In this document: one piece after another, positions 21,830 through 63,996 of the stretch | Layout of the letters: each line of letters opens with the position of its first letter | Numbering within the stretch: position 1 is the stretch's first letter | Notes under the pieces: generated by a model | Told to the model about the DNA's origin: nothing | The model's database searches: none | The model's input: the letters and a program-made list of their open reading frames with translations, nothing else | Assembly: GCF_900109925.1 (NCBI RefSeq) | Contig: NZ_FOBW01000008.1 | Span: forward strand, 62,001-126,000 | DNA from: Mesobacillus persicus | GTDB taxonomy: Bacteria; Bacillota; Bacilli; Bacillales; Cytobacillaceae | Direction: 5' to 3' | DNA length: 64,000 nt | Made by a program: the position numbers and the translations under genes

Positions 21830-21830
21830 A

Positions 21831-31148: not shown

Positions 31149-31198
31149 CCACAAATGCCTCCCTTATAATAAAATTTATTTCGATGGAGTCAATTTTT

Positions 31199-36725: not shown

Positions 36726-36861
36726 TGTTATTCCCTCCAATATTTGATTTTAACTTAAAATTAAATACATAGATTTAGATCTGAAAGCTCAATGACATAC
36801 AGTTAGAAATTCACTGAAGGTTGCCCCGCACTCGTTTTGTTAGATGCCAGGGCTGTTGCCG

Positions 36862-37824
36862 CTATTTTAAACTTTCTGAACTTAATAGCTTGCTTTGTTT
36901 TTGCTCATGAAGAAACCGAGCGATATTAGTAACGGTATTCTTTATTTGTTTAGGGAAGATTTCAACGTTCGCAAAATACCCATGAACTAAACCCTTTTCG
37001 CAGATCGTTTCAACTTGGACTTTCTCCTCTTTTAATCGTTTTGCGTAAGCTAATCCTTCGTCACGAAGTACATCAACTTCCGCGACGATCACGAGTGCTG
37101 GTGGTAAATCACTTAAATCGTCGGCTAGTAATGGGGCCGCATATTTTTCATTTTTATCTCTTTCATCTCTAATGTAATGATTCGCGAACCAAATCACCAA
37201 ATCTTTATTCAGACCGAATCCGTTTTCGAATTCTTCATAAGACTTCGTGTTAAAATCAAAACTAGTACCTGGATAAACTAGGACTTGTGCAGTAATATCC
37301 GGTCCATTTTGATCTCTAGCCATCATAGAAACAACTGCAGCCATGTTTCCTCCAGCACTTTCACCGCTAACGACAATGTTAGAGGCATCCCCATTGATTG
37401 TCTCAGCATTTTCACTTACCCATTCTAGTGCCGCATAGCAGTCATTTACTGGAATAGGAAACTTATACTCTGGGGAAAGTCTATATTCTACTGATACCAC
37501 AATACGTTCAGTTAGCTCGGAAATCATTCTGCAAGTTTTATCGCAAGTTTCAATATCCCCCAGGACCCAACCGCCCCCGTGGTAATAAATATAAATAGGT
37601 AAAGGGCCTTCTACATTGGGTGTATAAATTCTAATTTTTATATTCGCATCCTGATCGACAGGAATGAACCTATCTTCGATTTTTGCAAGCCTTCCAAAAT
37701 CTGCACGGTCACTTAAAGGTTTCTTAAACAGATCTCGGACTGCTTGATGTCCGAGCGACAGGTTCTTCAATACTAGGTTAAACCCTTCAATATATATTTT
37801 TGACTCTGGTAATAATTCAGGCAA
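36862..37824 (-). CDS. HSL-family esterase/lactonase (cassette 1)
   Basis: 320 aa from TTG at 37824, as in the paralogue; AAAGGAAG lies 8 bases upstream. An in-frame GTG at 37833 is too close to that site. Oxyanion motif HGGGWVLG, nucleophile GESAGG, Asp in DVLRDEG and His in GLVHGYF form the triad. The family-IV lipases include epsilon-caprolactone hydrolase. It follows the BVMO gene, so it probably opens the ester or lactone made by that enzyme. Homologous to the C-terminal part of the fusion at 28.5 kb. Confidence 0.88.
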   Translation of the reverse strand: MPELLPESKIYIEGFNLVLKNLSLGHQAVRDLFKKPLSDRADFGRLAKIEDRFIPVDQDANIKIRIYTPNVEGPLPIYIYYHGGGWVLGDIETCDKTCRMISELTERIVVSVEYRLSPEYKFPIPVNDCYAALEWVSENAETINGDASNIVVSGESAGGNMAAVVSMMARDQNGPDITAQVLVYPGTSFDFNTKSYEEFENGFGLNKDLVIWFANHYIRDERDKNEKYAAPLLADDLSDLPPALVIVAEVDVLRDEGLAYAKRLKEEKVQVETICEKGLVHGYFANVEIFPKQIKNTVTNIARFLHEQKQSKLLSSESLK

Positions 37825-37843
37825 ATGAAGCACTTCCTTTCAT

Positions 37844-39741: not shown

Positions 39742-41325
39742 TTATTGTTCTAACCAGATTGTTGAAAAAACTCCCTTAGCCATCATATTAGGTTCATAAC
39801 CTTTTAGTTTAGGATTCATCGCATCGATTGCCGAAGGAAAGAAAAGTGGAATGACTCTCGCTTCTTCCAACATGGCATGCCTTCCAACCTCATGGTAAAT
39901 CTCGGCACGTTCCTTTAGATCACTGGTTGAAACTGCTTTCGCAAGAAGTGAATCGATTTCTGAAGGACCTTCTCCAAGGTTATAAAAACTATTTTCAGAG
40001 TACTGAGAGTTGGTTAGCATTTGCGGGTCTGGTTTTCCGGTTGCAGATGCTAGTAATGCAGGTGTCCCTTTTTCAGCAAAAAACGTTGAAACAGCTGCTG
40101 TTAATTCCATTGGCTGGAGAGTTACCTCAATTCCAATTTCTTTCAACTGACTCTTTATTGTCTCGGCTAATCGACTCTCATAGGCTACTGAGAAATGTAG
40201 CAAGGTAAATGAAGCATCTTCAAGACCGGCTTCTTGCAAAAGTTTCTTTGCTTTTTCAGGATCATATTCGATTTTTGCATTTTCATCATGTGCCCAATGA
40301 CCACTTGGAAAATCTCCGTAAGCGGGCTCACCGTCGCCAAAGTTAAGGGCTGTAACAATCGCTTCACGATTAATGCCATGTTGAACGGCTAATCTAAATG
40401 CTTTGTTGTCAAATGGTGCCATGTTTCTATTAATATATAATTGAGGACGTTGCATTCCCAATGTCTTTTTTACTTCTATATTCGAATCGCTTTCCAAACT
40501 TTGTAGATTTGCAGCACTCATATAATAAGCTAAATCTATTTCACCTGATTTAAGAGCGTTAATTCTTGTATTTTCGTCTGACATGATCTTTATGGTTAGT
40601 TTATCGAGATAAGGTTTCCCTTCCCCCCAGTAATCCTCAAATGGTTCTAATACAATTTCGCCATTTGGAACCCGGCTAACAAACTTATATGGCCCCGCAC
40701 CAACTGGATGTTGGGAATAGTTTTCACCGTTTTCCTTAACGGCAGTCGGAGAAACCATCATGCCACCATAATCCGTTAAAACTAATATAAGAGAAGAATC
40801 TGGTTGTTTTAAATGAAATTTCACTGTCAACGGATCGATCACTTCCACACGATCTATATTTTTCAACTCTGATACACTTGAATCATCAGAATTCGCCCGC
40901 TCAATATTAAATTTGACCGCTTCTGCATCAAAAGTTGTTCCATCGTGGAATTTAACATCTTCTTGCAAATGAAAAACGATTGTTTTCTCATCTGGAAATT
41001 CCCATGATTTCGCAAGGCCAGGTTGTGGTTCAAGTTTCTGATTAAAGGTGACGAGCGTGTCGTATACTGGCCAAAGTAGCGCCTGATCACTTCCAGAGTT
41101 CGACAGAATCGGATCGTAATTCGTTATATCCGCGGGATATCCAATCACAGCTTCTCCACCCTTTTGTGGGGTTCCTTCAACAGAATTCGCCGTTTCTCCT
41201 TTTGTATTATCTTGTGAACCAGATTGATTTTCCGAGCCTGACTTAGAAGAACATCCAACCACAATCACTGTGAACGCTAATAAAAATAATAAGGTGAAAA
41301 AATACTTAAACTGCCCTTTATACAT
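39742..41325 (-). CDS. Lipoprotein substrate-binding protein, SBP family 5 (paralogue without own permeases)
   Basis: 527 aa from the ATG at 41325, seven bases after GAGGGGGAG; two ATGs further upstream overlap that site. Signal peptide with lipobox VVGC, then a Ser/Gly-rich linker and a family-5 binding domain (YDPILSNSGSDQALLWPVYD). It is closely related to the binding protein at 55953-57530, including the same region around YDPILS.SGSD. No permease or ATPase is adjacent, so it probably feeds the OppBCDF-type importer at 52.0-55.8 kb, widening its range. Confidence 0.88.
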   Translation of the reverse strand: MYKGQFKYFFTLLFLLAFTVIVVGCSSKSGSENQSGSQDNTKGETANSVEGTPQKGGEAVIGYPADITNYDPILSNSGSDQALLWPVYDTLVTFNQKLEPQPGLAKSWEFPDEKTIVFHLQEDVKFHDGTTFDAEAVKFNIERANSDDSSVSELKNIDRVEVIDPLTVKFHLKQPDSSLILVLTDYGGMMVSPTAVKENGENYSQHPVGAGPYKFVSRVPNGEIVLEPFEDYWGEGKPYLDKLTIKIMSDENTRINALKSGEIDLAYYMSAANLQSLESDSNIEVKKTLGMQRPQLYINRNMAPFDNKAFRLAVQHGINREAIVTALNFGDGEPAYGDFPSGHWAHDENAKIEYDPEKAKKLLQEAGLEDASFTLLHFSVAYESRLAETIKSQLKEIGIEVTLQPMELTAAVSTFFAEKGTPALLASATGKPDPQMLTNSQYSENSFYNLGEGPSEIDSLLAKAVSTSDLKERAEIYHEVGRHAMLEEARVIPLFFPSAIDAMNPKLKGYEPNMMAKGVFSTIWLEQ

Positions 41326-41494
41326 AACCATACTCCCCCTCATAAATTCTTAAAAACTCTATCCGGCTACTATTAAACTTAAGAATACACTTTCATTATT
41401 AGCAAGAAGATTTATATTCAGTAGATAAAAACCTGCCCAATTTTCTAACTCACGAACGATACCGGCAAAAAATTATATCTTTTCAGGTTTTAAA

Positions 41495-47473: not shown

Positions 47474-47563
47474 AATATCCCTCCTATCATTTCGAAAAAT
47501 TTTTTTCTATCAAAGATGAATCTTTTTATTTCTAAAGAGTATTCGACCTTTAACTCGAAATCT

Positions 47564-50536: not shown

Positions 50537-51970
50537 TTACCTATAGTTGCTTCGTATAGCAACGGATACTAGTTTATTCTCAAGGTAGTCATCTAATCCA
50601 TATTTGCCGCCTTCTCTTCCTATCCCACTTTCTTTTATTCCACCAAATGGTGCTTGAACGGCAAAAGGAGATGGATCATTAACCCCCACCATTCCATATT
50701 CGAGTTTTTCAGAAACCCGATGTGCTCTGGAGAGATCATTCGTGTACACGTAAGAAGCTAAGCCATACTCAGTATTATTTGCCTTTTGTATCACATCATC
50801 TTCATCACTAAAACGGATTAACGGTGCAACTGGTCCAAATGTTTCTTCATGGGTAATATTCATTTCCTCGTTTACATCAGAAAGCACTGTTGGGGAATAA
50901 AAATAACCATTTTTATATTCATTATTACTTAATGTTTTACCACCACAAAGAATGGTAGCACCTTTGTTTACAGCATCCGTTACATGTTCGTGTGATTTAT
51001 CAACGGCATCTTGATTAACCAAAGGACCTATTTGAATATTTTCATCTAAGCCATCTCCGATAACCAATGAAGAAACTTTATCTGCAAAACGCCTTGCGAA
51101 CGTATCATAAATCGAATCATGAACATAGATACGGTTTGCACAAACGCATTGTTGACCATTAGATGAAAATTTACTTATAACCGTGCCTTCAATTGCAAGA
51201 TCAATATCTGCATCTTCAAAAACAATAAAAGGAGCATGTCCGCCTAGTTCCATTGATACACGCTTTACTGTGTCAGCAGATTGTCGAATTAATTTCTTTC
51301 CAACTTCTGTTGAACCTGTAAATGAAATTTTCCGAACATCCTTACTTGCCATCAATTCTCCAACAATTTCAGATGAATTTCCGATTACAAGATTTACCAC
51401 ACCTTTTGGCAATCCTACCTCGTCAAATATTTTAAAAAGCTCTAAAGTAGATAGAGGTGCCTCTCGCGAAGGTCGAATAACAACCGTACAACCAACAGCA
51501 AGTGCTGGCCCCATTTTTCTAGCACCCATTGACAATGGGAAATTCCACGGAGTAATAGCCCCTACAACACCTACTGGTTGCTTTAAAACTGAAATCCTTT
51601 TATTTGGTGCTGAGGCCGGAATAAGATCACCATAAACACGACGAGATTCTTCTGCATACCATTTAAAAAAGGCAATTGTACCCCCAACTTCGTTACGGGC
51701 ATTATGAATGGTTTTCCCCATTTCCTTCGTAATCGTTTGGGCGAGATGCTCTTTTTTTTCATTTAATTTTTCAACTACCTTATGCAAATAAGCTCCACGT
51801 TGTTCTCCGGTTAATGCAGACCATGCTGGAAATGCGTTTTTAGCAGCTTCTATCGCTGTTTGAGTTTCTTTTCTTCCTACTAAATAAACTTTATCAACCA
51901 GTTGACCGTTTGCAGGATTGTTGACTTCCAATACTTGATCAGTTATTACCCATTCTCCATTAATATACAT
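50537..51970 (-). CDS. Aldehyde dehydrogenase, succinate-semialdehyde-dehydrogenase-like (copy A)
   Basis: 477 aa. Catalytic Cys in SNGQQCVCANR (the Cys-x-Cys typical of SSADH/GabD), general base Glu in MELGGHAPF, and NAD motif TGSTEVG. It oxidises aldehydes or semialdehydes to acids with NAD(P). Last gene of the apparent ten-gene operon. Same length as the copy at 57612-59045. If substrates are cyclic ketones, it would oxidise an omega-oxo acid to a dicarboxylic acid. Confidence 0.9.
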   Translation of the reverse strand: MYINGEWVITDQVLEVNNPANGQLVDKVYLVGRKETQTAIEAAKNAFPAWSALTGEQRGAYLHKVVEKLNEKKEHLAQTITKEMGKTIHNARNEVGGTIAFFKWYAEESRRVYGDLIPASAPNKRISVLKQPVGVVGAITPWNFPLSMGARKMGPALAVGCTVVIRPSREAPLSTLELFKIFDEVGLPKGVVNLVIGNSSEIVGELMASKDVRKISFTGSTEVGKKLIRQSADTVKRVSMELGGHAPFIVFEDADIDLAIEGTVISKFSSNGQQCVCANRIYVHDSIYDTFARRFADKVSSLVIGDGLDENIQIGPLVNQDAVDKSHEHVTDAVNKGATILCGGKTLSNNEYKNGYFYSPTVLSDVNEEMNITHEETFGPVAPLIRFSDEDDVIQKANNTEYGLASYVYTNDLSRAHRVSEKLEYGMVGVNDPSPFAVQAPFGGIKESGIGREGGKYGLDDYLENKLVSVAIRSNYR

Positions 51971-52029
51971 TTCCCTCTACTCCCTCCATAATATCCCTTA
52001 TCCTCTATTACAAAAATGCATTTTTCATC

Positions 52030-53013
52030 CTAATTCGCTACTTTATCCTCAAATAATAAACAAGCTGTCAGGCTTTGTTTAGAAGTAGGCAGTAAATTCG
52101 GATCGATCCTCTTACATTGCTCCATCGCGACTGGACAGCGCGTATGAAAACTACAACCTGCAGGAGGATTCGCAGGGCTAGGCAAGTCACCTGTTAAAAT
52201 GATTCGTTCGCGGTTCCGCATTTTTGGATCTGGATGAGGAACAGCTGACAACAATGCTTTTGTATACGGATGACGGGGATTCTCGAACAATTCTTCTTTA
52301 TTTGCAAATTCAATAATTTTTCCAAGATACATAACCGCAATTTTATCGCTAATATGTTTAACGGCTTGAATACCATGGGCAATAAAGAGATAGGATAAGC
52401 CCATATCATTTTGAATTTCTTTTAATAGATTTAAGATTTGCGCTTGAATGGATACGTCAAGGGCCGAGACTGGCTCATCACATACAATGAGCTTAGGCTG
52501 TAGGGCTAGTGCTCTTGCAATGCCAAGCCTTTGTCTTTGCCCTCCAGAGAATTCAATTGGATAACGGTTGCCATGATAGGAGGCAAGGCCAACTCTCTCT
52601 AGTAGTTCGTCGACCCTTTTCCTTCGTTCGCTTGCTGTACCGACTTTATGTAGAACTAGTGGTTCAGCAATAATATCAGCAACCGTCATTCTTGGGTTGA
52701 GTGACGAATATGGATCTTGGAAGATCATTTGTAAGTTCTTTCCTAAAGATTTTTTTGCTTTGTACTCATTTAATTTTTTTCCTTCAAAATAAATCTCTCC
52801 GCCTGTCGGATCGGAAAGTCCGACGACCATCCTACCTGTTGTCGATTTCCCGCAGCCTGATTCACCAACTAAACCAACGGTCTCTCCAGGGTAAATGTCA
52901 AGACTCACTCCATCAACAGCTTTTACAAAATGATTCTTTTTCCCAAAAAGACCGCTCCCAACAGGAAAGTGCTTTTTAATGTCTTTAAGTGATACTAGAG
53001 GCTGCTGTTTCAT
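52030..53013 (-). CDS. Oligopeptide/dipeptide-type ABC importer ATPase (OppF/DppF)
   Basis: 327 aa from the ATG at 53013 (AAGGAGG 11 bases upstream). Walker A GESGCGKST, LSFSGGQRQR-like signature (FSGGQRQR), Walker B LIVCDEPV, and the C-terminal cysteine-containing OppF tail (GCSFHTRCP) that binds a metal or FeS cluster in this subfamily. It overlaps the OppD-type gene by 29 bases. HGIQ replaces the usual SHDL after the switch region (FIAHG), a common feature here. Confidence 0.9.
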   Translation of the reverse strand: MKQQPLVSLKDIKKHFPVGSGLFGKKNHFVKAVDGVSLDIYPGETVGLVGESGCGKSTTGRMVVGLSDPTGGEIYFEGKKLNEYKAKKSLGKNLQMIFQDPYSSLNPRMTVADIIAEPLVLHKVGTASERRKRVDELLERVGLASYHGNRYPIEFSGGQRQRLGIARALALQPKLIVCDEPVSALDVSIQAQILNLLKEIQNDMGLSYLFIAHGIQAVKHISDKIAVMYLGKIIEFANKEELFENPRHPYTKALLSAVPHPDPKMRNRERIILTGDLPSPANPPAGCSFHTRCPVAMEQCKRIDPNLLPTSKQSLTACLLFEDKVAN

Positions 53014-54016
53014 AATGTCCAATCCCTCCTTCCTCTTCAAGCGCATTCCAACAAGCAACCATGTTCCCTGCCGGATGCTCGAGCAATGTTGGTGCATTTT
53101 GGCTACACTTTTCAGTTGCGTAGCTGCAGCGTGTCACGAAATTACAACCTTTTGGCAACTCAAGTGGGTTTGGTACAACACCAGGTATGGTATCTAATTT
53201 TTCTTTCGATGGGCCGTACAATGCAGGAACGCTTGCCAGTAACCCTCTTGTATACGGGTGAAGAGGGTTTTCGAAGATATCCTCTACTGTGCCTTCTTCG
53301 ACAATCTTTCCGCAATACATGACTAAGACGCGATCAGCCGTTTCTGCTACAACACCGAGGTCATGGGTAATGAGGAGAATGGCAATGCCGCTTTCCTGTT
53401 GTAGTTTGCGCAACAGATTCAAAATTTGCGCTTGAATCGTCACATCAAGTGCCGTTGTCGGTTCATCGGCAATAATGAGCTGTGGATCACAAGCAAGTGC
53501 CATCGCAATCATCACTCTTTGCCTCATTCCACCAGACAATTGATGAGGATAGTCATTAAGGCGTCGCTTCGCATCGGGTATACCGACTTTATTTAATAAA
53601 TCAAGTGCCGTTACTAAGGCTTCTTTGTATTTTACTTTTTTATGCAAAACGATTGATTCAGCAATTTGCCTGCCAATGGGATGGACAGGGTTGAGTGAAA
53701 ACATCGGATCTTGGAAAATCATGGCGACCTCGTTGCCGCGAATTTTCCTCATTTCTTTTTCTTTTAATTTCAATAAATCTTTCCCTTTAAATGCAATGCT
53801 ACTATCTTTACTATATTGAATCGCACTTGCGTTAAGTCCCATAATTGAGAGGGAGGAAACGCTTTTCCCACTTCCTGACTCGCCCACTAATGCGACTATT
53901 TCACCTTTATTAATAGAGAATGAAACACCGTTAACAGGTTTAATTTCTCCTTTCGATGTCGGAATGAATGTTTCAAGATCCTTCACCTCAAGCAATGGTT
54001 CTTCTTTCTCACTCAT
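52985..54016 (-). CDS. Oligopeptide/dipeptide-type ABC importer ATPase (OppD/DppD)
   Basis: 343 aa with Walker [18 protein letters not shown] signature, Walker B LIIADEPT, switch ITHD and the C-terminal cysteine motif ([15 protein letters not shown]). First ATPase of the importer, 18 bp after the OppC-type gene. Confidence 0.92.
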
Positions 54017-54034
54017 GCTGTTGACCTCCTTTAT

Positions 54035-54874
54035 TTAGGTTTTTCTATACTTTGGATCAAGCGCTAGCCGTAAACCATCTCCAAGGAAGTTTCCAGCTAG
54101 TACGGTCAGGATAATGGCGAGACCAGGATAAACAATCATCCATGCATTCATATTAATCATGCTGTATGCTTGTTGAATCATATTTCCCCAACTAATTTGC
54201 GGAGACTGCGCTCCCATTCCAAGGAAACTAAGAGATGCTTCAACTAGAATCGCAAAGCTTAAATTAAATGAAGCTTGAACAACGATTGGTGGAGCTATGT
54301 TCGGGATAATATGCTTCAGCATGATCCAGCCCGCCCCCGCACCTGAGATTTTCGCAGCTTCAACATAAGGCTCTGAACGTATTTGCAAGGTTTGCCCCCT
54401 TGCGAGCCTTGCAAATTGAGGCGTGAAAACGATACCAATTGCAATCATCGCGTTCCATAAGCTGATGCCTAGTGCACCCGTAATTCCTAGCGCGAGCAAA
54501 ATTGCAGGAATCGCAATAATCCCGTCAACAATACGCATAAAGATATCATCAACAACCCCGCCTAAGTAACCTGACAAAATCCCCATCGGAACACCGATAC
54601 AAAGTGGAATTAAAATCGCAAACAAACCAGCTTGAATTGCCGACTTCGTTCCCATTAATAGCCGGCTGAAAATATCACGGCCAAGTTCATCCGTTCCTAA
54701 CCAGTGTTGGGCACTCGGGCTAGCCATGACTTTCATTAAGTCCTGTTCGATCGGATCGTAAGGAACAATGAAAGGGGCAATAATGGAAATAATGACGAGC
54801 ACCATTAAAAAGATAAAGCTAAAAAATGCGAGCCGTTCTGCCATTAAACGCTTGAAAACTGTTCCAATACTCAT
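54035..54874 (-). CDS. ABC importer permease (OppC/DppC type)
   Basis: 279 aa with six membrane helices. LGTDELGRDIFSRLL and the EAA-type loop RSEPYVEAAKISGAGAGWIM mark the DppC/OppC family. Pairs with the OppB-type permease encoded 14 bp upstream. Family members carry di- and oligopeptides and also nickel, opines and glutathione, so the substrate is open. Confidence 0.92.
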   Translation of the reverse strand: MSIGTVFKRLMAERLAFFSFIFLMVLVIISIIAPFIVPYDPIEQDLMKVMASPSAQHWLGTDELGRDIFSRLLMGTKSAIQAGLFAILIPLCIGVPMGILSGYLGGVVDDIFMRIVDGIIAIPAILLALGITGALGISLWNAMIAIGIVFTPQFARLARGQTLQIRSEPYVEAAKISGAGAGWIMLKHIIPNIAPPIVVQASFNLSFAILVEASLSFLGMGAQSPQISWGNMIQQAYSMINMNAWMIVYPGLAIILTVLAGNFLGDGLRLALDPKYRKT

Positions 54875-54888
54875 ATTCCTTCCCCTTT

Positions 54889-55833
54889 CTAATATTCAAT
54901 CCGCGGATCTAAGATGGCATACATGATATCGGTAATAAAGTTAATGATGATAACCATGACAATCATAACGAGAACAACACCTTGAAGCATCGTGAAGTCA
55001 CGTTGTAAAATCGAATTTACTGCAAGCTGTCCCATGCCTGGTATGGCAAAAACCGTTTCAATCACCACAGTAGCCCCTAATAAATTTCCGAACAAAATAC
55101 CGATAGTCGTCACAACTGGCAGCATCGCATTTTGTAATCCGTGATTAAAAATAGCTCTCCACCGTTTTACACCTTTAGAGTAGGCAGTTCGTACATAGTC
55201 CGCACTCATCACTTCCATTAACGAAGAGCGTAAGTGTCTTGTAATCTGTGCTGTCCCAACTGCACCAAGCGAAATAGCCGGTAGCAAAATCCCTTTAAAA
55301 AAATCAATTGGGTTATCATTAATACTCGTAAATCCAGTCGCTGGTACCCAGCCAAGCTTCAAGCTAAAGAATAAAACGAGCAGCATCGCGAGCCAAAAGT
55401 TCGGAATCGCTGAGCCCATCGTTCCAAAAAAGCGGGCAACATAGTCCATCCAACTATTCGGAAAATAGATAGACGTTATGGCAAAAAACATGCCACCTAC
55501 AACAGAAATGATCATTGCAACAAAAACAAGTTGAAATGTAACGGCTAAACGGCCGAACACCGCATCATGCACATATTGACCCGTAAAGATGGATCGACCT
55601 AAATCTCCTTGCAGGGCATTTTTCAGCCAATCGAAATACTGCGTAATAATCGGTTGATCAAGACCCAAATCCCGTCGCACTTGGGCTATTTTTTCAGGAG
55701 TCGCATTTTCACCAAGCAATGCTAAGACAGGGTCGCCTGGAATAAGTAAAATAAAAGAGAACACGATGAGGGTTGTAATGAATAGCATCGGGATCACATA
55801 CAGTAAGCGACGTGCTAAATATTTTAAAAACAT
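54889..55833 (-). CDS. ABC importer permease (OppB/DppB type)
   Basis: 314 aa from the ATG at 55833, nine bases after AAGGAG; an earlier ATG overlaps that site. Six helices, LIPGDPVLALLGENATPEKI and EAA loop SADYVRTAYSKGVKRWRAIF. First permease, after a hairpin that separates it from the binding-protein gene. Confidence 0.92.
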   Translation of the reverse strand: MFLKYLARRLLYVIPMLFITTLIVFSFILLIPGDPVLALLGENATPEKIAQVRRDLGLDQPIITQYFDWLKNALQGDLGRSIFTGQYVHDAVFGRLAVTFQLVFVAMIISVVGGMFFAITSIYFPNSWMDYVARFFGTMGSAIPNFWLAMLLVLFFSLKLGWVPATGFTSINDNPIDFFKGILLPAISLGAVGTAQITRHLRSSLMEVMSADYVRTAYSKGVKRWRAIFNHGLQNAMLPVVTTIGILFGNLLGATVVIETVFAIPGMGQLAVNSILQRDFTMLQGVVLVMIVMVIIINFITDIMYAILDPRIEY

Positions 55834-55886
55834 CCTTCCCATCTCCTTCCGTTTAAAAATTAAAAAGTACTAATATCCCATTAATA

Positions 55887-55925
55887 AATAGTGGAGTAGG
55901 CACAATGTGTTACTACTCCACTATT
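55887..55925 (-). other. Intercistronic hairpin between binding protein and permease
   Basis: AATAGTGGAGTAG (55887-55899) and its exact complement (55913-55925) form a 13-bp stem with a 13-base loop and no T-run. Hairpins here are commonly used to stabilise the binding-protein mRNA or reduce read-through, raising that protein over the permeases. Confidence 0.7.
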
Positions 55926-55952
55926 AACTAGTTATGGAACACGTACTTTACA

Positions 55953-57530
55953 TCACTCTTCGACCCAAATCGATGAGAAAATCGCTTTACCCATTAAATT
56001 TGGCTCAAATCCTTTTACCTTTTGAGTCATCGCTGATGTCATCGGCTCATAAACTAGCGGAATTCCGATTGCTTCTTCTAAAAGTGCTTTTCTACTAATT
56101 TCTTTGTATAATTCAGCACGTTCCTCATTATCATAGATTGAAGCGGCTTTTGAAATAAGTGACTCAATTTCAGGTGTAGAGTGCTTACCTGGATTGAGGT
56201 AACTATTTGAAGAAAATAATAGTTGTACGGCTATTTGCGGGTCTTGACGCCCTGTCCAAGTCGTACTAAATGCAGGTGCTGTCTGTTCAGAAAAGAAACT
56301 AGTAGTCGCCTTAGTTACTTCCATTGGTTCGAGATTTACGTCAATCCCTATTTCTTTTAGTTGATCCTTTATTATTTCAGCTCCTCTTGTATAGTTGGCA
56401 ATTGCTAAGTGAATCATTGAGAAGGAGATATTGTTAAGTCCTGAGTCTTTTACTAATTGTTTTGCTTTCTCAGGGTCATAGTCGATCTTCATGTCAGGAT
56501 CAGCTGCCCAATAATCTGCCGGAAAGGCGGAATTAGCCGGTGCACCCAGTCCAAAATTAAGTCCCTGAACAATCGCTTCACGGTTAATCCCATGCAGTAC
56601 CGCTAATCGTACATTTTTATTATCAAACGGCGGCATTGATTGATTTAAAAAGATCATGTTAAATCGAAGCGGCAAAATATCTTTTAAAACAATATTGGAG
56701 TCGTTTTTAAGACTCTGAACATTCGCTGGAGAAATGATGTCAGCAAAATCGATTTCACCCGATTTAAGTGCATTAATTCTTGTATTTTCATCCGCCATGA
56801 CTTTAACCGTCATTTTATCAAGGTAAGGCTTTCCTTCCTGCCAGTAATCTTTATAGGCTTCAAAGACAACTTCTCCATTAGGAATATGCTTTACTCGTTT
56901 AAAAGGCCCTGCCCCGACTGGATTTTGAGAAAAATCATCACCATGTTCTTGAACAGCTGCAGGTGAAACCATCATCCCACCCTTATCAGATAACGCTAAT
57001 AAAAGGGAAGAATCGGGTACTTTTAAATGGAGGTTAACAGTCTTCTTATCTATAACTTCTACACTCTCAATATTATTAAGATCGGGTACTTTCGAATCAG
57101 TTGAATTCGTTCGTTCGATATTAAATTTCACCGCTTCTCCATCAAATGGTGTTCCATCATGGAAAGTCACACCTTCCCTAAGATGAAGAGTCAATGTCTT
57201 AGCATCATCGCTAAATTCCCATGATTCAGCCAGTCCAGGCTGTGGCTCAAGATTAGGTGAAAAAGCGATAAGTGTATCATAGATGGGCCATAATAAGGAA
57301 TGGTCACTCCCACTAGCTGATAAAATGGGATCATAATTCGTTGAATCCGTAGCATACGCAATGGTAACTTCCCCACCTTTTTTAGGTGTACCTTCTTCTG
57401 AATTTGGCGTTTCATTAGAATTAGATGAGTCCTTCCCAGAGCTCGAATCTGAAGAACAACCAGCTATGATAAAAGCAAGAAGGAGCAATGGGAATAATTT
57501 GGAAACAAAAGTGGACTTTACTCTATTCAA
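55953..57530 (-). CDS. Lipoprotein substrate-binding protein of the OppBCDF-type importer
   Basis: 525 aa from TTG at 57530, nine bases after GGGGAG; an ATG at 57539 overlaps that site. Signal peptide and lipobox IIAGC, Ser-rich linker, SBP family-5 domain with YDPILSASGSDHSLLWPIYD. It captures the substrate of the importer encoded just downstream. Located between the aldehyde dehydrogenase and permease genes inside the catabolic operon, so the cargo is probably the pathway substrate or a related compound, not necessarily a peptide. Confidence 0.9.
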   Translation of the reverse strand: MNRVKSTFVSKLFPLLLLAFIIAGCSSDSSSGKDSSNSNETPNSEEGTPKKGGEVTIAYATDSTNYDPILSASGSDHSLLWPIYDTLIAFSPNLEPQPGLAESWEFSDDAKTLTLHLREGVTFHDGTPFDGEAVKFNIERTNSTDSKVPDLNNIESVEVIDKKTVNLHLKVPDSSLLLALSDKGGMMVSPAAVQEHGDDFSQNPVGAGPFKRVKHIPNGEVVFEAYKDYWQEGKPYLDKMTVKVMADENTRINALKSGEIDFADIISPANVQSLKNDSNIVLKDILPLRFNMIFLNQSMPPFDNKNVRLAVLHGINREAIVQGLNFGLGAPANSAFPADYWAADPDMKIDYDPEKAKQLVKDSGLNNISFSMIHLAIANYTRGAEIIKDQLKEIGIDVNLEPMEVTKATTSFFSEQTAPAFSTTWTGRQDPQIAVQLLFSSNSYLNPGKHSTPEIESLISKAASIYDNEERAELYKEISRKALLEEAIGIPLVYEPMTSAMTQKVKGFEPNLMGKAIFSSIWVEE

Positions 57531-57611
57531 AACAATCATCTCCCCTTAATATCAATTGGTAAACCGTTTTCATTATTCTGAACAAGTATTTTAATGGCAA
57601 CTTACTAGTTA

Positions 57612-59045
57612 TCAATTTTGCTTAATTTTCATTGATACATATTTCTCAACTAAATATTCTTGTAAACCATACTTTCCACCTTCTCGACCTACACCACTTG
57701 CTTTTACCCCACCGAAAGGAGCTTGTGCAGTTGTTGGCATTTCATCATTTATTCCAACAATTCCATATTCAAGGTTTTCCATCATACGGATCGCACGGCT
57801 AAAATCATTTGTAAAACAATAGGCTGCTAGACCATATTGAAAGTGATTTGCTCTTTCAACTACTTCCTCTTCAGATTTAAAGATAAAAATCGGCGCAACT
57901 GGTCCAAAGGTTTCCTCCTTTGCAATATCCATTTCATCTGTAGCATAATTGATCACTGTAGGTTCAAAAAAGCAACCATCCATATGATCAAGCTTTGCTT
58001 CTTTTCCTCCTGCGATAATTTTGCCACCATGATTTATTGCATCATCAATTTGTGATAAAACCTTAGATAAAGACTCTCGATTGATAAGTGGACCTATGTC
58101 TGTGTTTTCATTCAGTCCATTTCCGATGACCATTTTACTTACTTTTTCAGCAAATAAATCACCAAACTGATCCGCTAAGCTTTCGTGAACATAAATTCTA
58201 TTTGTACAAACACAGGTTTGACCAGCATTTCTGAATTTACTAGCTATGGCACCGTCTACAGCCGTTTCTAGGTCTGCATCTTCAAAAACAATATATGGTG
58301 CATGGCCACCTAGTTCCATTGAAACTTTTTTTACTGTATCTGCTGCACCGCGCATCAATTCAATTCCTACTTCTGTTGAACCAGTAAAAGTTAATTTACG
58401 GACCGCAAAACTCTCATTAAAAGTGGCCGCTATCTCCTGAGAGGGCCCTGTTACTAGATTTGCTACTCCGTTTGGTAGACTTGCAGCATCAAGGGCCTCA
58501 AAAATTAATTTTGCTGTAAGAGGTGTTGCTGATGCGGGTTTAACAATCACCGTACAACCTGCTGCAAGTGCTGGAGCGATTTTTCTAGTGATCATGGCTG
58601 CTGGGAAATTCCAAGGTGTAATTGCCGCAACGACCCCAACAGGTTCCTGTAATACAACGATTCTTTTATCAACACTTGAAGCTGGAATCGTATCGCCATA
58701 AATACGTTTTGCTTCCTCTGCATACCAATCAACATAAGATATTGCTAGATTTACCTCTCCAATAGACTCCCTTAATGGTTTGCCCATTTCAAGTGTGATT
58801 GTTTTTGCAATATCTTCTGCTCGATCCCTTAATTGGCTAGCAAATTTTTTTAAAAATTCACTCTTTTCTCCAGCTGTTTTCCTTTTCCATATCTTAAAGG
58901 CTTGTTCGGCAGCTGAAATAGCCCTTTCTGTATCTTCTCTATTTCCATAAGCCATCTCCCCAACCTTTTCTTTGGTTGCTGGATTATTAATCGTGAAACT
59001 TTTATTTGAAACAGATGGGGTCCATTCGCCGTTAATATAAAGCAT
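57612..59045 (-). CDS. Aldehyde dehydrogenase, succinate-semialdehyde-dehydrogenase-like (copy B)
   Basis: 477 aa from the ATG at 59045 (GAGGAGG seven bases upstream); the frame is open to 59102 without a better site. Catalytic Cys in GQTCVCTNRIY, Glu in MELGGHAPY, TGSTEVG. A paralogue of copy A at 50537. It follows the SDR gene at 28 bp. The order BVMO, esterase, SDR, aldehyde dehydrogenase equals the order of chemical steps in lactone-type ketone degradation. Confidence 0.9.
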   Translation of the reverse strand: MLYINGEWTPSVSNKSFTINNPATKEKVGEMAYGNREDTERAISAAEQAFKIWKRKTAGEKSEFLKKFASQLRDRAEDIAKTITLEMGKPLRESIGEVNLAISYVDWYAEEAKRIYGDTIPASSVDKRIVVLQEPVGVVAAITPWNFPAAMITRKIAPALAAGCTVIVKPASATPLTAKLIFEALDAASLPNGVANLVTGPSQEIAATFNESFAVRKLTFTGSTEVGIELMRGAADTVKKVSMELGGHAPYIVFEDADLETAVDGAIASKFRNAGQTCVCTNRIYVHESLADQFGDLFAEKVSKMVIGNGLNENTDIGPLINRESLSKVLSQIDDAINHGGKIIAGGKEAKLDHMDGCFFEPTVINYATDEMDIAKEETFGPVAPIFIFKSEEEVVERANHFQYGLAAYCFTNDFSRAIRMMENLEYGIVGINDEMPTTAQAPFGGVKASGVGREGGKYGLQEYLVEKYVSMKIKQN

Positions 59046-59073
59046 TAAGCTGCCTCCTCGTTTACTATGATAT

Positions 59074-59844
59074 TTAAATCCCCCTTGCCTGCGCTCCACC
59101 ATCTATTGAAATTGTTTCCCCTGTCATATAGGAAGAAGCATCAGAAGCTAAAAATAAGACCCCTGCTGCAATTTCTTCTGGTTTTCCCATTCGTCTCATT
59201 GGAGACTTACTTATTACTTTTTCCATAAACTCTTTATCAATTTCTTTTATAGCTGCTAGAATAGGAGTATCCGTATAGTAAGGGGCTATACCATTTACCC
59301 TTACGCCCCTCTCGGCCCATTCAGAAGCAAATGCCTTTGTAACCATGTTTACTCCACTTTTACTAACACTATAAGCAAGGGAGCCAGTTACGGCTTGTTG
59401 GGAAGCAGCTGAAGAGAGATTAATGATTGAACCTTTGCCTTGCTCTAGCATGACTTTGCCCACTTCTTGGGTAAACATGAAGACACCCGTTAAGTTTACT
59501 TCCAAAATCTTTTGCCAAATCTCTAATGGAAACTCCTCTGCCGGTGTTCTTTTGGAAGTGATTCCTGCATTATTAACTAATATGTCAATTGTGGAAAACT
59601 TTTCAAGGGTCATGTTTACAACATTTTTAATATCATTAAGGTTTGTCACATCACATGGAATGACGAGAACTTTCGCTCCCTTGTCTCTCAGTTCTTCTGC
59701 AAATTCTTCAAGACCTGTTAATGTGAGGTCGCATAGAACTAAATTACTTTCGTAATTGGCGAATCCCCTTGCAATACTTTTTCCAATCCCTCCATTAGCC
59801 CCCGTAATTATGGCTGTTTTTCTGTCCAAATTAAAAATATCCAA
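59074..59844 (-). CDS. Short-chain dehydrogenase/reductase (cassette 2)
   Basis: 256 aa with TGANGGIG, NNAG, YSVSK and C-terminal GGAQARG. By my count only 24 positions differ from the cassette-1 SDR at 35955-36725, and even the 3' flanking bases (CGCAGGC...GGGGGAT on the minus strand) are alike, so the duplication is fairly recent. Likely oxidises the hydroxyl group formed by the esterase. Confidence 0.9.
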   Translation of the reverse strand: MDIFNLDRKTAIITGANGGIGKSIARGFANYESNLVLCDLTLTGLEEFAEELRDKGAKVLVIPCDVTNLNDIKNVVNMTLEKFSTIDILVNNAGITSKRTPAEEFPLEIWQKILEVNLTGVFMFTQEVGKVMLEQGKGSIINLSSAASQQAVTGSLAYSVSKSGVNMVTKAFASEWAERGVRVNGIAPYYTDTPILAAIKEIDKEFMEKVISKSPMRRMGKPEEIAAGVLFLASDASSYMTGETISIDGGAQARGI

Positions 59845-59921
59845 CTTAATCCCCCCAGGTACTAATTGGTAGTAATCAAAAATAAGATTAACCGGTTTTA
59901 CTATTCAAAACCTTCAGTCTT

Positions 59922-60857
59922 TTAATCTTGGTTTATTTCACAAAGAAAGCTGTCGATGGTAGAAATAGTTTTTTTAATTTGTTCAGGGAAAATTTCCATA
60001 TAAGTAAAATACCCGTGAACTAATCCTTTTTGGCAAAAGGATTGAACTGTTACCTCCGCTTCTTTTAAGCGTTTTACATAAGCTAATCCATCGTCGCGGA
60101 GGACATCATTTTCCGCAACGATTACAAGTGCCGGCGGTAAATTTCTTAAATCTGCGGCCATTAGGGGGGCCGCATATTTATCAATTTTATCCTTTTCATC
60201 TCTAATGTAATGGTTAGAAAACCATATCGATAGTTCCTTATTTAGACCGAAACCGTTTTCAAATTCTTTATAAGAGTCTGTGTCTACATTAAAACTCGTA
60301 CTAGGATAGATCAGTACTTGTGCAGAGATATGGGGTCCCTTGTTATCCCTGGCCATCATGGAGACAACCGCAGCCATGTTTCCTCCAGCACTATCACCAC
60401 CAACTATAATAGTAGAAGCATCTCCATTGATTAACGCTCCATTTTTGCTTACCCATTGCAGTGCCGCATAGCAGTCATTCACTGGAATTGGAAACTTAAA
60501 CTCTGGAGAAAGCCTATAATCTACTGAAACTACGATCCTTTCAGTTTGTTCGGCAATCATTCTGCACGTTGCATCGCAAGACTCTAAATCACCTAGAACC
60601 CATCCTCCACCGTGGAAATACATAAAAATAGGGCAAGGGCCGTCTACTTTGGGCGTATAAACTCTAATTTTCACCTTTGCATCCTGATTGACAGGAATAA
60701 AAAGGTCTTCAACTTTCGCAAGCAGTCCAAGACCTGCTTTTTCACCTGAAGGCTTCTTAAATAACTCTCTGATTGTTTCATGACCTAACGAAAGGTTTTC
60801 CAATACTAGGTCAAATCCTTTAATATATACTTTTGCCTCTGGTAAAAGTTCAGCCAA
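59922..60857 (-). CDS. HSL-family esterase/lactonase (cassette 2)
   Basis: 311 aa starting at TTG 60857 with AAAGGAAG upstream. HGGGWVLG, GDSAGG, DVLRDDG and GLVHGYF give the oxyanion hole and triad. Homologous to the cassette-1 esterase and to the C-terminal part of the BVMO fusion. It follows the BVMO gene by 59 bp and is likely co-translated with it. Confidence 0.9.
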   Translation of the reverse strand: MAELLPEAKVYIKGFDLVLENLSLGHETIRELFKKPSGEKAGLGLLAKVEDLFIPVNQDAKVKIRVYTPKVDGPCPIFMYFHGGGWVLGDLESCDATCRMIAEQTERIVVSVDYRLSPEFKFPIPVNDCYAALQWVSKNGALINGDASTIIVGGDSAGGNMAAVVSMMARDNKGPHISAQVLIYPSTSFNVDTDSYKEFENGFGLNKELSIWFSNHYIRDEKDKIDKYAAPLMAADLRNLPPALVIVAENDVLRDDGLAYVKRLKEAEVTVQSFCQKGLVHGYFTYMEIFPEQIKKTISTIDSFLCEINQD

Positions 60858-60916
60858 TTAATTTCTTCCTTTCTTTGTACATTTAACATATTGATAAGGA
60901 ATAAGTAGGTTTACAC

Positions 60917-62572
60917 TCAATTTGAGGAATTTACTTTATTGCGTTTATCAGCAAATAGAGAAAAACCTTCATACCCCTTATCTACAACTTCTTTACAAAT
61001 CTCAAGATATTTCTTAAAACCTCCTAAATATAGAGGTAGTCCTCTTGGTTTCCCTGGTATATTTGCCCCTGTCCACCAAGACTCCGTTTTAACAAAAAGT
61101 GTATTATTAGCTAACTCTACAACCGATTTACTCCATCCAGCTTCGGCTTCCTTTTCCGCCTCTATTATATTTAGGTCATGTTCACGGAGATACTTCAGAC
61201 ACTTAATAATCCATTCAACATTTGACTCAATCACTGCGACGTTGTTGGTAAATCCCGCAGGACTTTCAGGTCCAGTGATTAGGAATAGGTTAGGAAAACC
61301 AGTTGTTGCAAGTCCGAGATATGTGCTTATCTGTCCTCCATTTTTCCATTTTTCCTTTAATGAGATTCCATCTTTACCCCTAATATCTATTTTGAACAAG
61401 GGGCCGGTAATAGCATCATAACCTGTCGCAAATACAAGAATATCTAAGTCATATTCCTTTTCAATTGTTCGTAGTCCCTCCGGAGTAATTTCCTCAATAG
61501 GCGCCTTTTTTACATCAATCAAGCTGACATTATCACGATTATATGTTTCTAAATAATCGGTATTTAAAACTTGGCGTTTCGTTCCATAATAATAAGTTGG
61601 CATTAATTTTTCTGCTGTCTTGGGATCCCGAACAATTTCAGGGATCTTAGAGCGGAGGAATTCTGCAACTGTTTCATTCGCTTTTTCATTGGTAAATATA
61701 TCTGTATAACCTGGCATAAACCCGCCTTTTTCCCAAGCTTCTTCCAGTGCTTGCAACCTTTCTTCTTTGGTTACGTCAAAAATCGAACAATTCATTGGCT
61801 TCCTTAAATCACCAGTAGCGCTATTTCGAACTTGTTGCTTAATTTCTTCATAGTTTGCTTTTGTTTTTCGGATATACTCAGGATCAAGCTGATGATTCCT
61901 TGCTGGAATCATATATTGGGGAGTACGCTGAAACACTGTTAGGTGGTCAGCCTCTTTTGCTATTATAGGGATTATTTGTACACCACTTGATCCAGTCCCG
62001 ATGACACCAACACGTTTACCTTTAAAATCTACTTTCTCTTTCGGCCATTTTCCGGTATGATACCATTCACCTTTGAAGTTATTTAATCCTTTAAAGTTAG
62101 GAACGTTGGCAGCTGAGAGGCCACCTACGGCAGGGATGAAGTACTTAGCTGTTACACTAGTACCGTCATTTATGTAAATCCGCCAGTTCTCGTTGTCCTC
62201 GTCATAATGAGCGGCCGTGATGCGCGTATTGAGTTGAATATCTTTCCGTAAATTAAAATTATCTGCAACGTAGTTGAGATAACTTAGAATCTCCGGCTGA
62301 TCAGGATACCTAGAACTCCATGTCCATTCATTGTAGAGCTTTTCTGAGAACAAATAGGTATAGACTATGCTTTCCGTATCACAACGTGCTCCAGGATAGC
62401 GATTATGATACCATACTCCTCCTACATCCTCGGCTGCCTCAAATACTTTGGCGGAAAAACCAGCTTCACGTAAACTATGAAGCATGTACATTCCTGCAAA
62501 ACCTGCACCAATGATGACTGCATCGAAATCATTAACTTGACTTGGTTTAGAACCTTGTTGAGCAACATTCAT
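60917..62572 (-). CDS. Baeyer-Villiger monooxygenase (cassette 2), first gene of the long operon
   Basis: 551 aa with GAGFAG (22-27), fingerprint FKGEWYHTGKWP, GTGSSG and FATGYD. Same length and very similar to the cassette-1 enzyme. GGAGGGAG precedes the ATG. It opens a ten-gene minus-strand run: BVMO, esterase, SDR, aldehyde dehydrogenase, binding protein, two permeases, two ATPases, aldehyde dehydrogenase. A promoter with cre-like and FadR-like sites lies about 190-250 bp upstream. Confidence 0.92.
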   Translation of the reverse strand: MNVAQQGSKPSQVNDFDAVIIGAGFAGMYMLHSLREAGFSAKVFEAAEDVGGVWYHNRYPGARCDTESIVYTYLFSEKLYNEWTWSSRYPDQPEILSYLNYVADNFNLRKDIQLNTRITAAHYDEDNENWRIYINDGTSVTAKYFIPAVGGLSAANVPNFKGLNNFKGEWYHTGKWPKEKVDFKGKRVGVIGTGSSGVQIIPIIAKEADHLTVFQRTPQYMIPARNHQLDPEYIRKTKANYEEIKQQVRNSATGDLRKPMNCSIFDVTKEERLQALEEAWEKGGFMPGYTDIFTNEKANETVAEFLRSKIPEIVRDPKTAEKLMPTYYYGTKRQVLNTDYLETYNRDNVSLIDVKKAPIEEITPEGLRTIEKEYDLDILVFATGYDAITGPLFKIDIRGKDGISLKEKWKNGGQISTYLGLATTGFPNLFLITGPESPAGFTNNVAVIESNVEWIIKCLKYLREHDLNIIEAEKEAEAGWSKSVVELANNTLFVKTESWWTGANIPGKPRGLPLYLGGFKKYLEICKEVVDKGYEGFSLFADKRNKVNSSN

Positions 62573-62762: not shown

Positions 62763-62822
62763 ATAATAAAATATTCGCACCATTTGTAAACGCTTAATCA
62801 ACTTGTAATACAATCATACAAG
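62763..62822 (-). promoter_or_regulatory. Predicted promoter with cre-like and GntR-type operator elements
   Basis: On the minus strand TTTACA (62790-62785), 16 bases, TATTAT (62768-62763). A cre-like sequence, TGTAAACGCTTA (62785-62796), overlaps the -35 but diverges at the last two positions. Just upstream, CTTGTAATACAATCATACAAG (62802-62822) holds TTGTA-A-TACAA and outer arms CTTGT/ACAAG, resembling FadR-subfamily operators. It would be bound by the GntR protein encoded at 63310. Confidence 0.45.
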
Positions 62823-63309
62823 AATGTAAAATTATTTTCAATCTATTTTTTGAGTTTTCACAATATTCTTGTTGTTTTGAGTCACTCTAAACTTTTTTGT
62901 TTCTTGAAGAAGAATTTTATTGTTTATTCTAATTAGTTATCCTTTTCCAACACAAGCTTAACGTGCTATTTGTTAGTACCCATTTCAGACAATCAATTTT
63001 TGTAATTTGAGCTTTTAATCGATTTAGTTTTTATAGTGTTGAATTTTTCCGTTACGTCCTCTCTACCGCAGAAATGCATATTGGGGTGTAAAAAATTTTA
63101 GGAAGTATAAAAAAAATCCCCATTTCATTGAATAGTTGGGGATTTTTTACCTATACGTACTAAAAGCAATACGACTGGTAAAGTGCTAGTCATTTGTTTA
63201 GTTTTTTTAACTGAAAAATCAATATTGGGTATCTTTTAGAAAATAGGAGGATAATGCTACTATGGTTGTAATCATATGCTTTGGCTGTCAAAAAAAACAA
63301 AGGGTCTAT
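62823..63309. other. Intergenic stretch upstream of the catabolic operon
   Basis: Very AT-rich. Apart from the terminator at 63111-63148 no feature is supported. Confidence 0.4.
63111..63148. terminator. Terminator downstream of the GntR-type gene
   Basis: AAAAAATCCCCA (63111-63122) and TGGGGATTTTTT (63137-63148) form a 12-bp stem with T-runs in both directions, 160 bp past the regulator stop. Confidence 0.7.
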
Positions 63310-63996
63310 TTAATTCACGCGTGGATCCCCAAGTTTTCTCCTTGCATTTGTTAAATGTTCTTTCATATAAAATGCAGCTGCTGTTTTATCTCTTCTTTTA
63401 ATTGCTTCAAAAATATTTTGATGTTCCTGGTACACTTGTTCCCGCTTTTCTTTTCTACCCACGTTTTTCTGTAACGAATATGTAAGTGCTTTTTGGTAAA
63501 GGTCTCTTACATTTTCTACTGATTGTGTTAGAAAAGAATTTTTGGCAGCTTTTACGATAAGCATATGGAAAGCATAATCTGCTCTATCTCCAACAATGGA
63601 CTCATCATTAATTGTATCTGACACTTGCTGAAGTGCCACATATATCTCCTTAATATCTTCTTCTGTATGCCTTTCTGCTGCAAATGCTGCCGCTTCTGAC
63701 TCAATTACTGTTCGCAATTCAAGCAAGTTATAAATTTCTTCATCTGTAATCATTTCAAATGCAACCGTATCTAGTAGATCTTCTTTGCGCATTTTTTTTA
63801 CAAAGTTTCCGCCACCTTGAATCGATTCTATTAGCCCACTTGCAACGAGCACACTAATTGTTTCACGAATAGGTGCCCTACTAACACCAAACATTTCAGC
63901 AAGCTTATTTTCGGATGGAAGTTTTGAACCTTCTGGAAAATCCCCATTTCGTATTTTCTGTTTTAATTGTTCAAGTATTTGGTCTGCTATTTTCAT
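63310..63996 (-). CDS. GntR-family regulator, FadR subfamily
   Basis: 228 aa. N-terminal winged HTH (GDFPEGSKLPSENKLAEMFG, then VSRAPIRETISVL) and a C-terminal FCD domain with the Asp/His metal-ligand pattern (for example YAFHMLIVKAA). FadR-type regulators usually repress catabolic operons and release DNA on binding an organic acid. The start at 63996 is four bases from the window edge, so the true start may lie outside. The adjoining BVMO operon is the likely target. Confidence 0.85.
   Translation of the reverse strand: MKIADQILEQLKQKIRNGDFPEGSKLPSENKLAEMFGVSRAPIRETISVLVASGLIESIQGGGNFVKKMRKEDLLDTVAFEMITDEEIYNLLELRTVIESEAAAFAAERHTEEDIKEIYVALQQVSDTINDESIVGDRADYAFHMLIVKAAKNSFLTQSVENVRDLYQKALTYSLQKNVGRKEKREQVYQEHQNIFEAIKRRDKTAAAFYMKEHLTNARRKLGDPRVN

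Follow-up and report, generated by a model that had tools for sequence, protein, structure and literature searches.

A Baeyer-Villiger monooxygenase operon with its own Opp-type importer in Mesobacillus persicus: gene order, candidate regulation and probable class of substrate

Which compound is handled by an operon that encodes a Baeyer-Villiger monooxygenase (BVMO) together with a complete Opp-type importer? The question is raised by a stretch of 64,000 nucleotides (here called the window) of Mesobacillus persicus, comprising positions 62,001-126,000 of the forward strand of contig NZ_FOBW01000008.1 (assembly GCF_900109925.1; genome of 4.64 Mb in 40 contigs). A first-pass annotation of this DNA had described a ten-gene BVMO catabolic operon with its own importer, likened it to cyclohexanone degradation, and suggested a conjugated or peptide-like ketone as substrate. 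The reading favoured here, to which we attach a probability of about 70%, is that the genes constitute a GntR-repressed, Opp-importer-coupled Baeyer-Villiger operon for a non-peptide, probably carboxylated ketone. The gene families, their catalytic motifs and order, the conservation of the gene block, and a conserved promoter with an overlapping palindrome are read directly from the sequence.

The operon and its recurrence in other genomes

All ten open reading frames (ORFs) were confirmed where the first-pass annotation had placed them, in the same order and all on the minus strand. Families were assigned by Pfam and/or NCBIfam, and for the four Opp permease and ATPase genes by NCBIfam only. 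The genes, which include a short-chain dehydrogenase (SDR), two aldehyde dehydrogenases (ALDH) and a solute-binding protein (SBP), are as follows:

60917..62572, minus strand: BVMO_A, type I Baeyer-Villiger monooxygenase of 551 residues, FMO-like/BVMO family, with fingerprint FKGEWYHTGKWP
59922..60857, minus strand: EST_A, HSL-family (Abhydrolase_3) esterase of 311 residues, with motifs HGGGW and GDSAG
59074..59844, minus strand: SDR_A, short-chain dehydrogenase of 256 residues, by Pfam/NCBIfam
57612..59102, minus strand: ALDH1, SSADH-like aldehyde dehydrogenase; probable start at 59045 (MLYINGEW)
55953..57539, minus strand: SBP_A, family 5 solute-binding lipoprotein (SBP_bac_5), with Arg at the position of DppA Asp408
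54889..55842, minus strand: OppB-type permease, by NCBIfam
54035..54874, minus strand: OppC-type permease, by NCBIfam
52985..54016, minus strand: OppD-type ATPase, by NCBIfam
52030..53097, minus strand: OppF-type ATPase, by NCBIfam; probable start at 53013 (MKQQPLVS), overlapping OppD
50537..51970, minus strand: ALDH2, SSADH-like aldehyde dehydrogenase, by NCBIfam

The order is BVMO, esterase, SDR, ALDH, SBP, OppBCDF and second ALDH, with successive intergenic spacings of 59, 77, -29, 72, 110, 14, 18, -113 and 59 bp.

The block BVMO-EST-SDR-ALDH1-SBP-OppBCDF is found in the same order in Mesobacillus campisalis SA2-6 (G005; NZ_LAYY01000001.1), Neobacillus rhizophilus FJAT-49825 (G159) and N. 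niacini MER531 (G153), so that with the window it is represented in four genomes of two genera, and its proteins are 72-96% identical to those of the window's operon. Recurrence in the same order in three further genomes of two genera is more than chance. Taken in the order M. campisalis/N. rhizophilus/N. niacini, the identities to the window's operon copies are 85/72/72% for BVMO, 76/81/78% for EST, 85/87/85% for SDR, 90/92/91% for ALDH1, 84/75/76% for SBP, 93/88/87% for OppB, 96/91/93% for OppC, 89/88/88% for OppD and 93/90/91% for OppF, with 89/87/89% for the upstream regulator GntR1; by these values the BVMO is one of the faster-changing parts of the operon. Extra genes stand at several points: in M. 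campisalis the interval between SDR and ALDH1 houses a CoA transferase III, an AMP-binding ligase, a gene of the metallo-beta-lactamase fold and an SDR, and a further SDR lies between SBP and OppBCDF, while N. niacini has a single additional SDR between SDR and ALDH1.

ALDH2 lies outside the shared block, and the window alone has it 3' of OppF. In the DNA read from the remaining three operon genomes nothing matches it better than ALDH1, at 51%. M. campisalis and N. niacini instead have an AMP-binding acyl-CoA ligase 3' of OppF, the two proteins sharing 94% identity, and N. rhizophilus has a 267-residue ORF there. Relatives of ALDH2 (68-84%) are present in seven other BVMO loci (L073, L080, L142-L145 and L007), and this ties it independently to BVMO chemistry. 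The proposal that these genes make up a catabolic operon equipped with an importer is upheld both in its ten genes and in the retention of the block as a unit in four genomes behind a single conserved promoter.

Regulator, promoter and candidate operator

The elements upstream of the BVMO gene are:

63310..63996, minus strand: GntR1, GntR/FCD regulator of 228 residues (Pfam GntR and FCD)
63109..63144, minus strand: putative intrinsic terminator in the GntR1-BVMO interval, AATCCCC...GGGGATT with a T run, read from the sequence
62813..62841, minus strand: sigma-A-like promoter TTGAAA-N17-TATGAT, from a promoter scan (10/12 matches)
62802..62822, minus strand: putative GntR1 operator, the 21-mer CTTGTATGATTGTATTACAAG, containing the -10 box TATGAT

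An orthologue of GntR1, 87-89% identical, lies directly upstream of the BVMO gene in each of the other three operon genomes. The hairpin and T run between the two genes suggest that GntR1 and the BVMO operon are on separate transcripts; a terminator scan (loop limit 8) did not call the hairpin at 63109-63144, and a comparable one can be read by eye in the other three intergenic regions. These regions are poorly conserved overall, and what stands out is the segment that begins with the -35 box and includes the 21-mer: the promoter hexamers, their spacing and the 21-mer are identical in all four operon genomes. A search of 193 family genomes for exact copies of the 21-mer located five sites in four genomes, precisely the operon carriers, and a reversed-pattern control gave 0/193. 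The fifth site is in N. rhizophilus, where it precedes an MFS-like gene by 148 bp; this gene shares 90% identity with an MFS gene close to the 3' end of the operon in M. campisalis. The core of this candidate operator, TTGTATTACAA, fits the FadR-type operator TNGTNNNACNA, which we take to be the inverted-repeat form used in GntR/FCD regulons, and a putative site of that form is present at the promoter. GntR1 may thus repress by occluding the -10 box, and a ligand may relieve this repression.

Genes for a second regulator (GntR2) and for GlcD-like and GlcF-like proteins are located upstream of the operon in all four genomes, the GlcD-like and GlcF-like relatives being respectively 92-94% and 88-91% identical to the window copies, whose family assignment comes from Pfam and NCBIfam. 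In every case more TTGTAWTACAA sites are found, some ahead of GntR1 and some ahead of GntR2-GlcDF. Because related sites precede both the GntR1 gene and the GntR2-GlcD-GlcF unit, the BVMO operon, GntR1 and GntR2-GlcD-GlcF likely form one regulon. Glycolate is not established as the substrate of GlcD, since its score lies below the NCBIfam cut-off (516 of 568 bits).

Enzymes, importer and probable substrate

BVMO_A carries the type I BVMO fingerprint FxGxxxHxxxW(P/D), in the form FKGEWYHTGKWP, between two Rossmann motifs, a pattern shared by 101 of the 110 BVMO ORFs examined that have 500 residues or more. Its nearest relative in the PDB is phenylacetone monooxygenase (PAMO; 622 bits, with 53% identity over 528 residues), ahead of the best cyclohexanone monooxygenase (CHMO; 533 bits), of steroid monooxygenase (521 bits) and of the Rhodococcus CHMO (at most 488 bits); judged by nearest solved relative, it is not a CHMO-type enzyme. 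Its GTKR aligns with the GTKR of PAMO, in which R is R337, a residue with a catalytic role, so the active-site arginine is conserved. A quick maximum-likelihood tree, built from 111 BVMO rows plus PAMO (112 in all), unites the BVMOs of the four operons and the second BVMO of the window (BVMO_B, below) in one clade with support of 100. To our knowledge, the natural substrates of PAMO-like BVMOs are mostly unknown.

The nearest solved relatives of EST_A are carboxylesterases of the HSL family, and it has the HGGG oxyanion motif and the GDSAG nucleophile motif of that family; of the 106 esterase ORFs examined, 90 have both HGGG and G(D/E/N)SAGG. The gene families predict a chemical series from ketone to ester, to acid plus alcohol, to aldehyde and to acid, with no specific sign of a lactone.

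BVMO loci were surveyed in the family genomes and an order-wide sample, an esterase being counted if it was fused to the BVMO or lay no more than 2.5 kb from it on the same strand. Each search scored a limited number of candidates per genome (7, 3 or 2, depending on the search), which makes the tallies lower bounds. An esterase is adjacent or fused in 105 of 116 BVMO rows (11 of them fused), and coupling of BVMO to esterase is general; SDR is near in 23 rows, ALDH in 18 and both in 11. The rows lacking an esterase are L068, L116, L138, L187, L190 (three rows), L191, L192, L193 and L194. The 116 rows comprise the fetched loci and the window, and include BVMO fragments (two rows in L134, three in L190, and L194) and the fusion L124, cut at a contig end. 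Partial matches in G216, G213 and G178 fall outside the 20-kb locus set, and L007 and L008 outside the 116-row count; the high-GC plasmid loci L196 and L197 gave no row, and in both an esterase adjoins the BVMO. The BVMO relative at L134 (G109:C11:27256-28884) has three internal stops, is seen as two ORFs, and is apparently a decaying copy.

The importer, with an SBP_bac_5 protein, two permeases and two ATPases, has the Dpp/Opp architecture, and OppBCDF and SBP_A score well against the Opp/Dpp/Gsi models, though below their curated cut-offs. In DppA of E. coli the bound peptide is anchored at its amino end by Asp408, a residue verified as Asp in the structure 1dpp. SBP_A has Arg when aligned with DppA at this position, which is Arg in 14 and Lys in two of 16 subfamily sequences and never Asp; other solved relatives have Asp (AapF, 7kz8), Asn (5u4o) or Ser (GsiB, 1uqw). 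A basic residue here argues for an acidic ligand. SBP relatives with E <1e-120 are present in at least 23 of the 193 family genomes, with identities of 49-62% once the four operon genes are set aside, and eight further importer loci were chosen from this list of matches and read. All eight have SBP and OppBCDF. Six adjoin catabolic genes, encoding variously acyl-CoA ligases, carboxyltransferases, an acyl-CoA dehydrogenase, carboxylesterases and a CoA transferase III, and one of the loci, L216, has an HsaA-like flavin monooxygenase and a catechol-2,3-dioxygenase-like (extradiol dioxygenase) gene. The substitution at the Asp408 position in 16 of 16 sequences, and the siting of importer relatives beside catabolic genes, make a peptide substrate for SBP_A unlikely, and that part of the first-pass proposal is not borne out; a conjugated ketone, which it also allowed for, or an acidic one may still be the substrate. 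Close to SBP-OppBCDF in two of the importer loci are genes with very similar starts (L215:925-1794 and L216:9666-10505), by eye resembling FAD synthetase/riboflavin kinase, which perhaps supply flavin. A predicted structure of SBP_A was set aside (mean pLDDT 60.7, from a six-row alignment) as too poor for comparison of pocket or fold.

The substrate is probably acidic, since Arg or Lys replaces the peptide-anchoring Asp, and it is probably acyclic or aryl rather than a cycloalkanone. In the proposed pathway the ligand would be bound by SBP_A, and perhaps by the second binding protein SBP_B (below), and imported through OppBCDF; GntR1 would leave the promoter once the ligand or an intermediate is bound. 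The BVMO would convert ketone into ester, the HSL esterase would hydrolyse this to acid and alcohol, and SDR and ALDH1/ALDH2 would oxidise the alcohol by way of the aldehyde to an acid. The acids would then undergo CoA activation, and 2-hydroxy acids might pass to the GlcDF-type oxidase of the shared regulon. The direction of flux is our inference. A more ambitious version, possible but well short of probable, is that the importer represents an unrecognised Bacillales branch of Opp systems for organic acids or conjugates, marked by the invariant Arg/Lys and used in modular fashion across BVMO, aromatic and acyl-CoA operons, here feeding in a ketone that is cleaved to a 2-hydroxy acid such as glycolate, which would explain GlcDF.

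Several observations weigh against the favoured reading. YliB/GsiB (1uqw), which is among the nearest solved relatives of SBP_A and is also its best NCBIfam model, has Ser rather than Asp and binds glutathione, so loss of Asp alone leaves a peptide conjugate possible. The Arg/Lys argument itself rests on alignment, because the model of SBP_A is of low confidence. Two of the eight importer loci (L211 and L215) show no catabolic neighbour, and importer and BVMO were seen together in only four genomes. Most BVMO loci lack an importer, which is therefore optional. The rows with SBP5 and permease among the 116 are L057, L059, WA and WC, the last of which, a fusion row, counts only through the unrelated OppBCDF at 18482-23399; L055 (M. 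campisalis) is uncounted, its Opp genes falling within the adjoining stretch L056, and L183 has permeases and no SBP5 hit. As to regulation, promoter-like sites over the whole region are at shuffle level (44 vs 46.6), the 11-mer core with at most one mismatch is barely above chance in the window (6 found vs 2.5 expected), and with up to two mismatches the 21-mer also matches two operon-less genomes (G151 and G209), the control giving three hits; it is only the conservation that makes the candidate operator convincing. GlcDF, too, may serve another substrate.

The likeness to cyclohexanone degradation proposed in the first-pass annotation survives in the order of the chemistry and fails at the BVMO. 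A chn/cpn-type pathway through lactone, hydroxy acid, oxo acid and diacid, with the importer taking up a cyclic ketone that is substituted or conjugated, would fit the gene set in its order, and two SSADH-like ALDHs suit omega-oxo acids; the hydrolase, SDR and ALDH are in the right broad families for the chn steps. For none of these, however, did the family assignment point to a lactone or hexanoate substrate, and no gene of the ten was assigned to adipate or diacid-CoA chemistry. EST_A most resembles general HSL esterases, and PAMO leads the best CHMO in the PDB by some 89 bits, so that we regard a cyclic ketone as unlikely. Slightly behind it we place the degradation of methyl ketones or subterminally oxidised alkanes, in which a long methyl ketone would give an alkyl acetate, then alcohol and acetate, followed by oxidation and CoA activation. 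BVMO with esterase is the logic of acmA/acmB (PMC6215540) and of Thalassolituus oleivorans on n-C28 (PMC6304351), as far as the parts of those reports consulted describe it, and a CoA ligase lies 3' of OppF in M. campisalis and N. niacini. Yet so hydrophobic a substrate should need no ATP-binding cassette (ABC) importer, the Arg or Lys of the binding protein suggests an anionic ligand, and no alkane hydroxylase was present among the scanned genes of the operon and its flanks, the genome itself not having been searched for one.

That the importer is an ordinary one for peptides or glutathione conjugates, lying downstream by chance or serving peptide-like substrates, seems improbable: the model scores and the Asp-less GsiB are in its favour, but order has been kept across four genomes and two genera, and both the 16 of 16 basic residues and the catabolic neighbours at six of the eight loci tell against it. 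Least probable of all is detoxification, in which a toxic natural product bearing a ketone would be inactivated or tailored rather than used for growth. Apparent regulation, patchy taxonomic distribution and duplication within the window would suit such a role, for which an importer would be counterproductive, and GlcDF stands beside the operon in all four genomes, with CoA ligase and CoA transferase genes in or next to that of M. campisalis. The operon offers three independent routes to the natural substrate of a BVMO, an enzyme class prized for biocatalysis, through the binding protein, the regulator with its candidate operator, and the downstream enzymes; and if the binding-protein signature is true, some automatic annotations as peptide importer would need correction.

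Further genes of the window and comparison with known systems

Beyond what the first-pass annotation had described, the window contains the conserved GntR regulator with its putative operator, the probably co-regulated GlcDF genes, a second BVMO-EST-SDR copy, and a BVMO-esterase fusion. The additional features are:

39742..41343, minus strand: SBP_B, 58% identical to SBP_A, with no permease genes adjoining
37962..39617, minus strand: BVMO_B, 88% identical to BVMO_A
36862..37833, minus strand: EST_B, 71% identical to EST_A
35955..36740, minus strand: SDR_B, 90% identical to SDR_A
28545..31154, minus strand: BVMO-esterase fusion of 869 residues, a PAMO-like BVMO at about 1-540 and an HSL esterase at about 555-869
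41495-48604, minus strand: module preceding SBP_B, comprising an alcohol dehydrogenase (ADH), a thiamine pyrophosphate (TPP) enzyme, an FAH hydrolase, Ldh2, amidohydrolase_2, a Rieske ferredoxin and an SDR

In the copy set SBP_B-BVMO_B-EST_B-SDR_B (35955-41343) divergence from the first set is greater for the esterase than for the BVMO and the SDR, and no exact 11-mer core was found upstream of the second BVMO-EST-SDR set. Importer locus L217 has two SBP genes ahead of one permease set, which makes it plausible that SBP_B shares the permease of the operon.

The fusion is one of 11 fused BVMO rows (including one cut at a contig end), its relatives being found in ten other genomes. In the BVMO tree the fusions lie on one side of the branch from the operon group, with unfused rows of neighbouring loci among them, and a single origin is possible. 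When ten fusions are aligned, the invariant columns include the catalytic motifs of the BVMO half as well as those of the esterase half. A search of 398 class genomes, with two candidates scored in each, gave no frame of fusion length besides the window's own. A one-piece tblastn match in Nocardia farcinica was rejected, since it proved to be two adjacent frames with the esterase ORF starting after the BVMO, and a predicted structure of the fusion was not used (mean pLDDT 68.0, and below 50 for residues 486-598, which span the BVMO end, linker and esterase start). We found no description of a natural BVMO-esterase fusion in the open-licence PMC literature, which is weak evidence of absence; such a protein would be a ready-made cascade enzyme taking ketone to acid on one chain.

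The part of the window containing the TPP gene is taken to be a separate module. Identification of the TPP enzyme at 45755 as cyclohexane-1,2-dione hydrolase was dropped, its best solved relatives being acetolactate synthases and BbmA (about 230 bits). A relative with E <1e-180 exists in only one other of the 193 genomes (88%), behind LysR, SDR and ADH genes, and in the 9.4 kb read there the other query proteins gave no match downstream of it. Elsewhere, a second OppBCDF-SBP set (18482-23399, minus strand) is distant from that of the operon (permeases 33-41% and SBP about 25% identical). Two 350-bp stretches (23515-23859 and 27586-27933), 83% identical, flank two ORFs that by eye are oxidoreductase-like and MFS transporter-like, and the start of an ORF at 12407-13183 (plus strand) resembles, again by eye, an IS200-type transposase, one sign of mobility in the window.

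How does the operon compare with systems already described? The chnB/C/D/E and cpn pathways share with it the order of BVMO, hydrolase, alcohol oxidation and aldehyde oxidation. The chn system differs in that the operon's BVMO is nearest to PAMO and is accompanied by an importer; moreover ChnD is a zinc-dependent ADH and ChnR a regulator of AraC type, where the operon has an SDR and a GntR protein. BVMO and esterase genes, in some cases with an alcohol dehydrogenase, are likewise clustered as BmoF1/EstF1/AdhF1 in Pseudomonas fluorescens DSM 50106 and mekA/mekB in P. veronii, for neither of which do we know of an importer. The architecture of SBP_bac_5 with OppBCDF is that of the Dpp, Opp and Gsi peptide importers, from which the operon is set apart by Arg or Lys at the DppA Asp408 position and by its catabolic genomic context.

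The excerpt consulted on Gordonia sp. TY-5 describes acmA/acmB as a bicistron of acetone monooxygenase and an esterase that hydrolyses the ester product (PMC6215540); the coupling of a BVMO gene to an esterase gene is as in the operon, although the ketone is another and no SDR, ALDH or ABC importer is named in that excerpt. Similarly, in the bisphenol F degrader Sphingobium yanoikuyae DN12, as far as the consulted portion of the report goes, the BVMO bpfC converts a diaryl ketone into an ester and the alpha/beta hydrolase bpfD comes next, the same succession of BVMO and hydrolase; this organism is, however, a proteobacterium with a two-component oxidoreductase upstream, and the main text nowhere uses the term ABC transporter (PMC12724174). 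For T. oleivorans, the part of the report consulted gives proteome evidence for BVMO-hydrolase partners on n-C28 (PMC6304351). The partnership of BVMO and hydrolase is thus already known, from these systems as well as from mek, bmoF1, chn and cpn. No operon combining a BVMO with an Opp-type importer was found in the open-licence PMC literature, again weak evidence of absence. The chemistry of the M. persicus operon is therefore of a known kind, and it is its pairing with an Opp-type importer that looks new.

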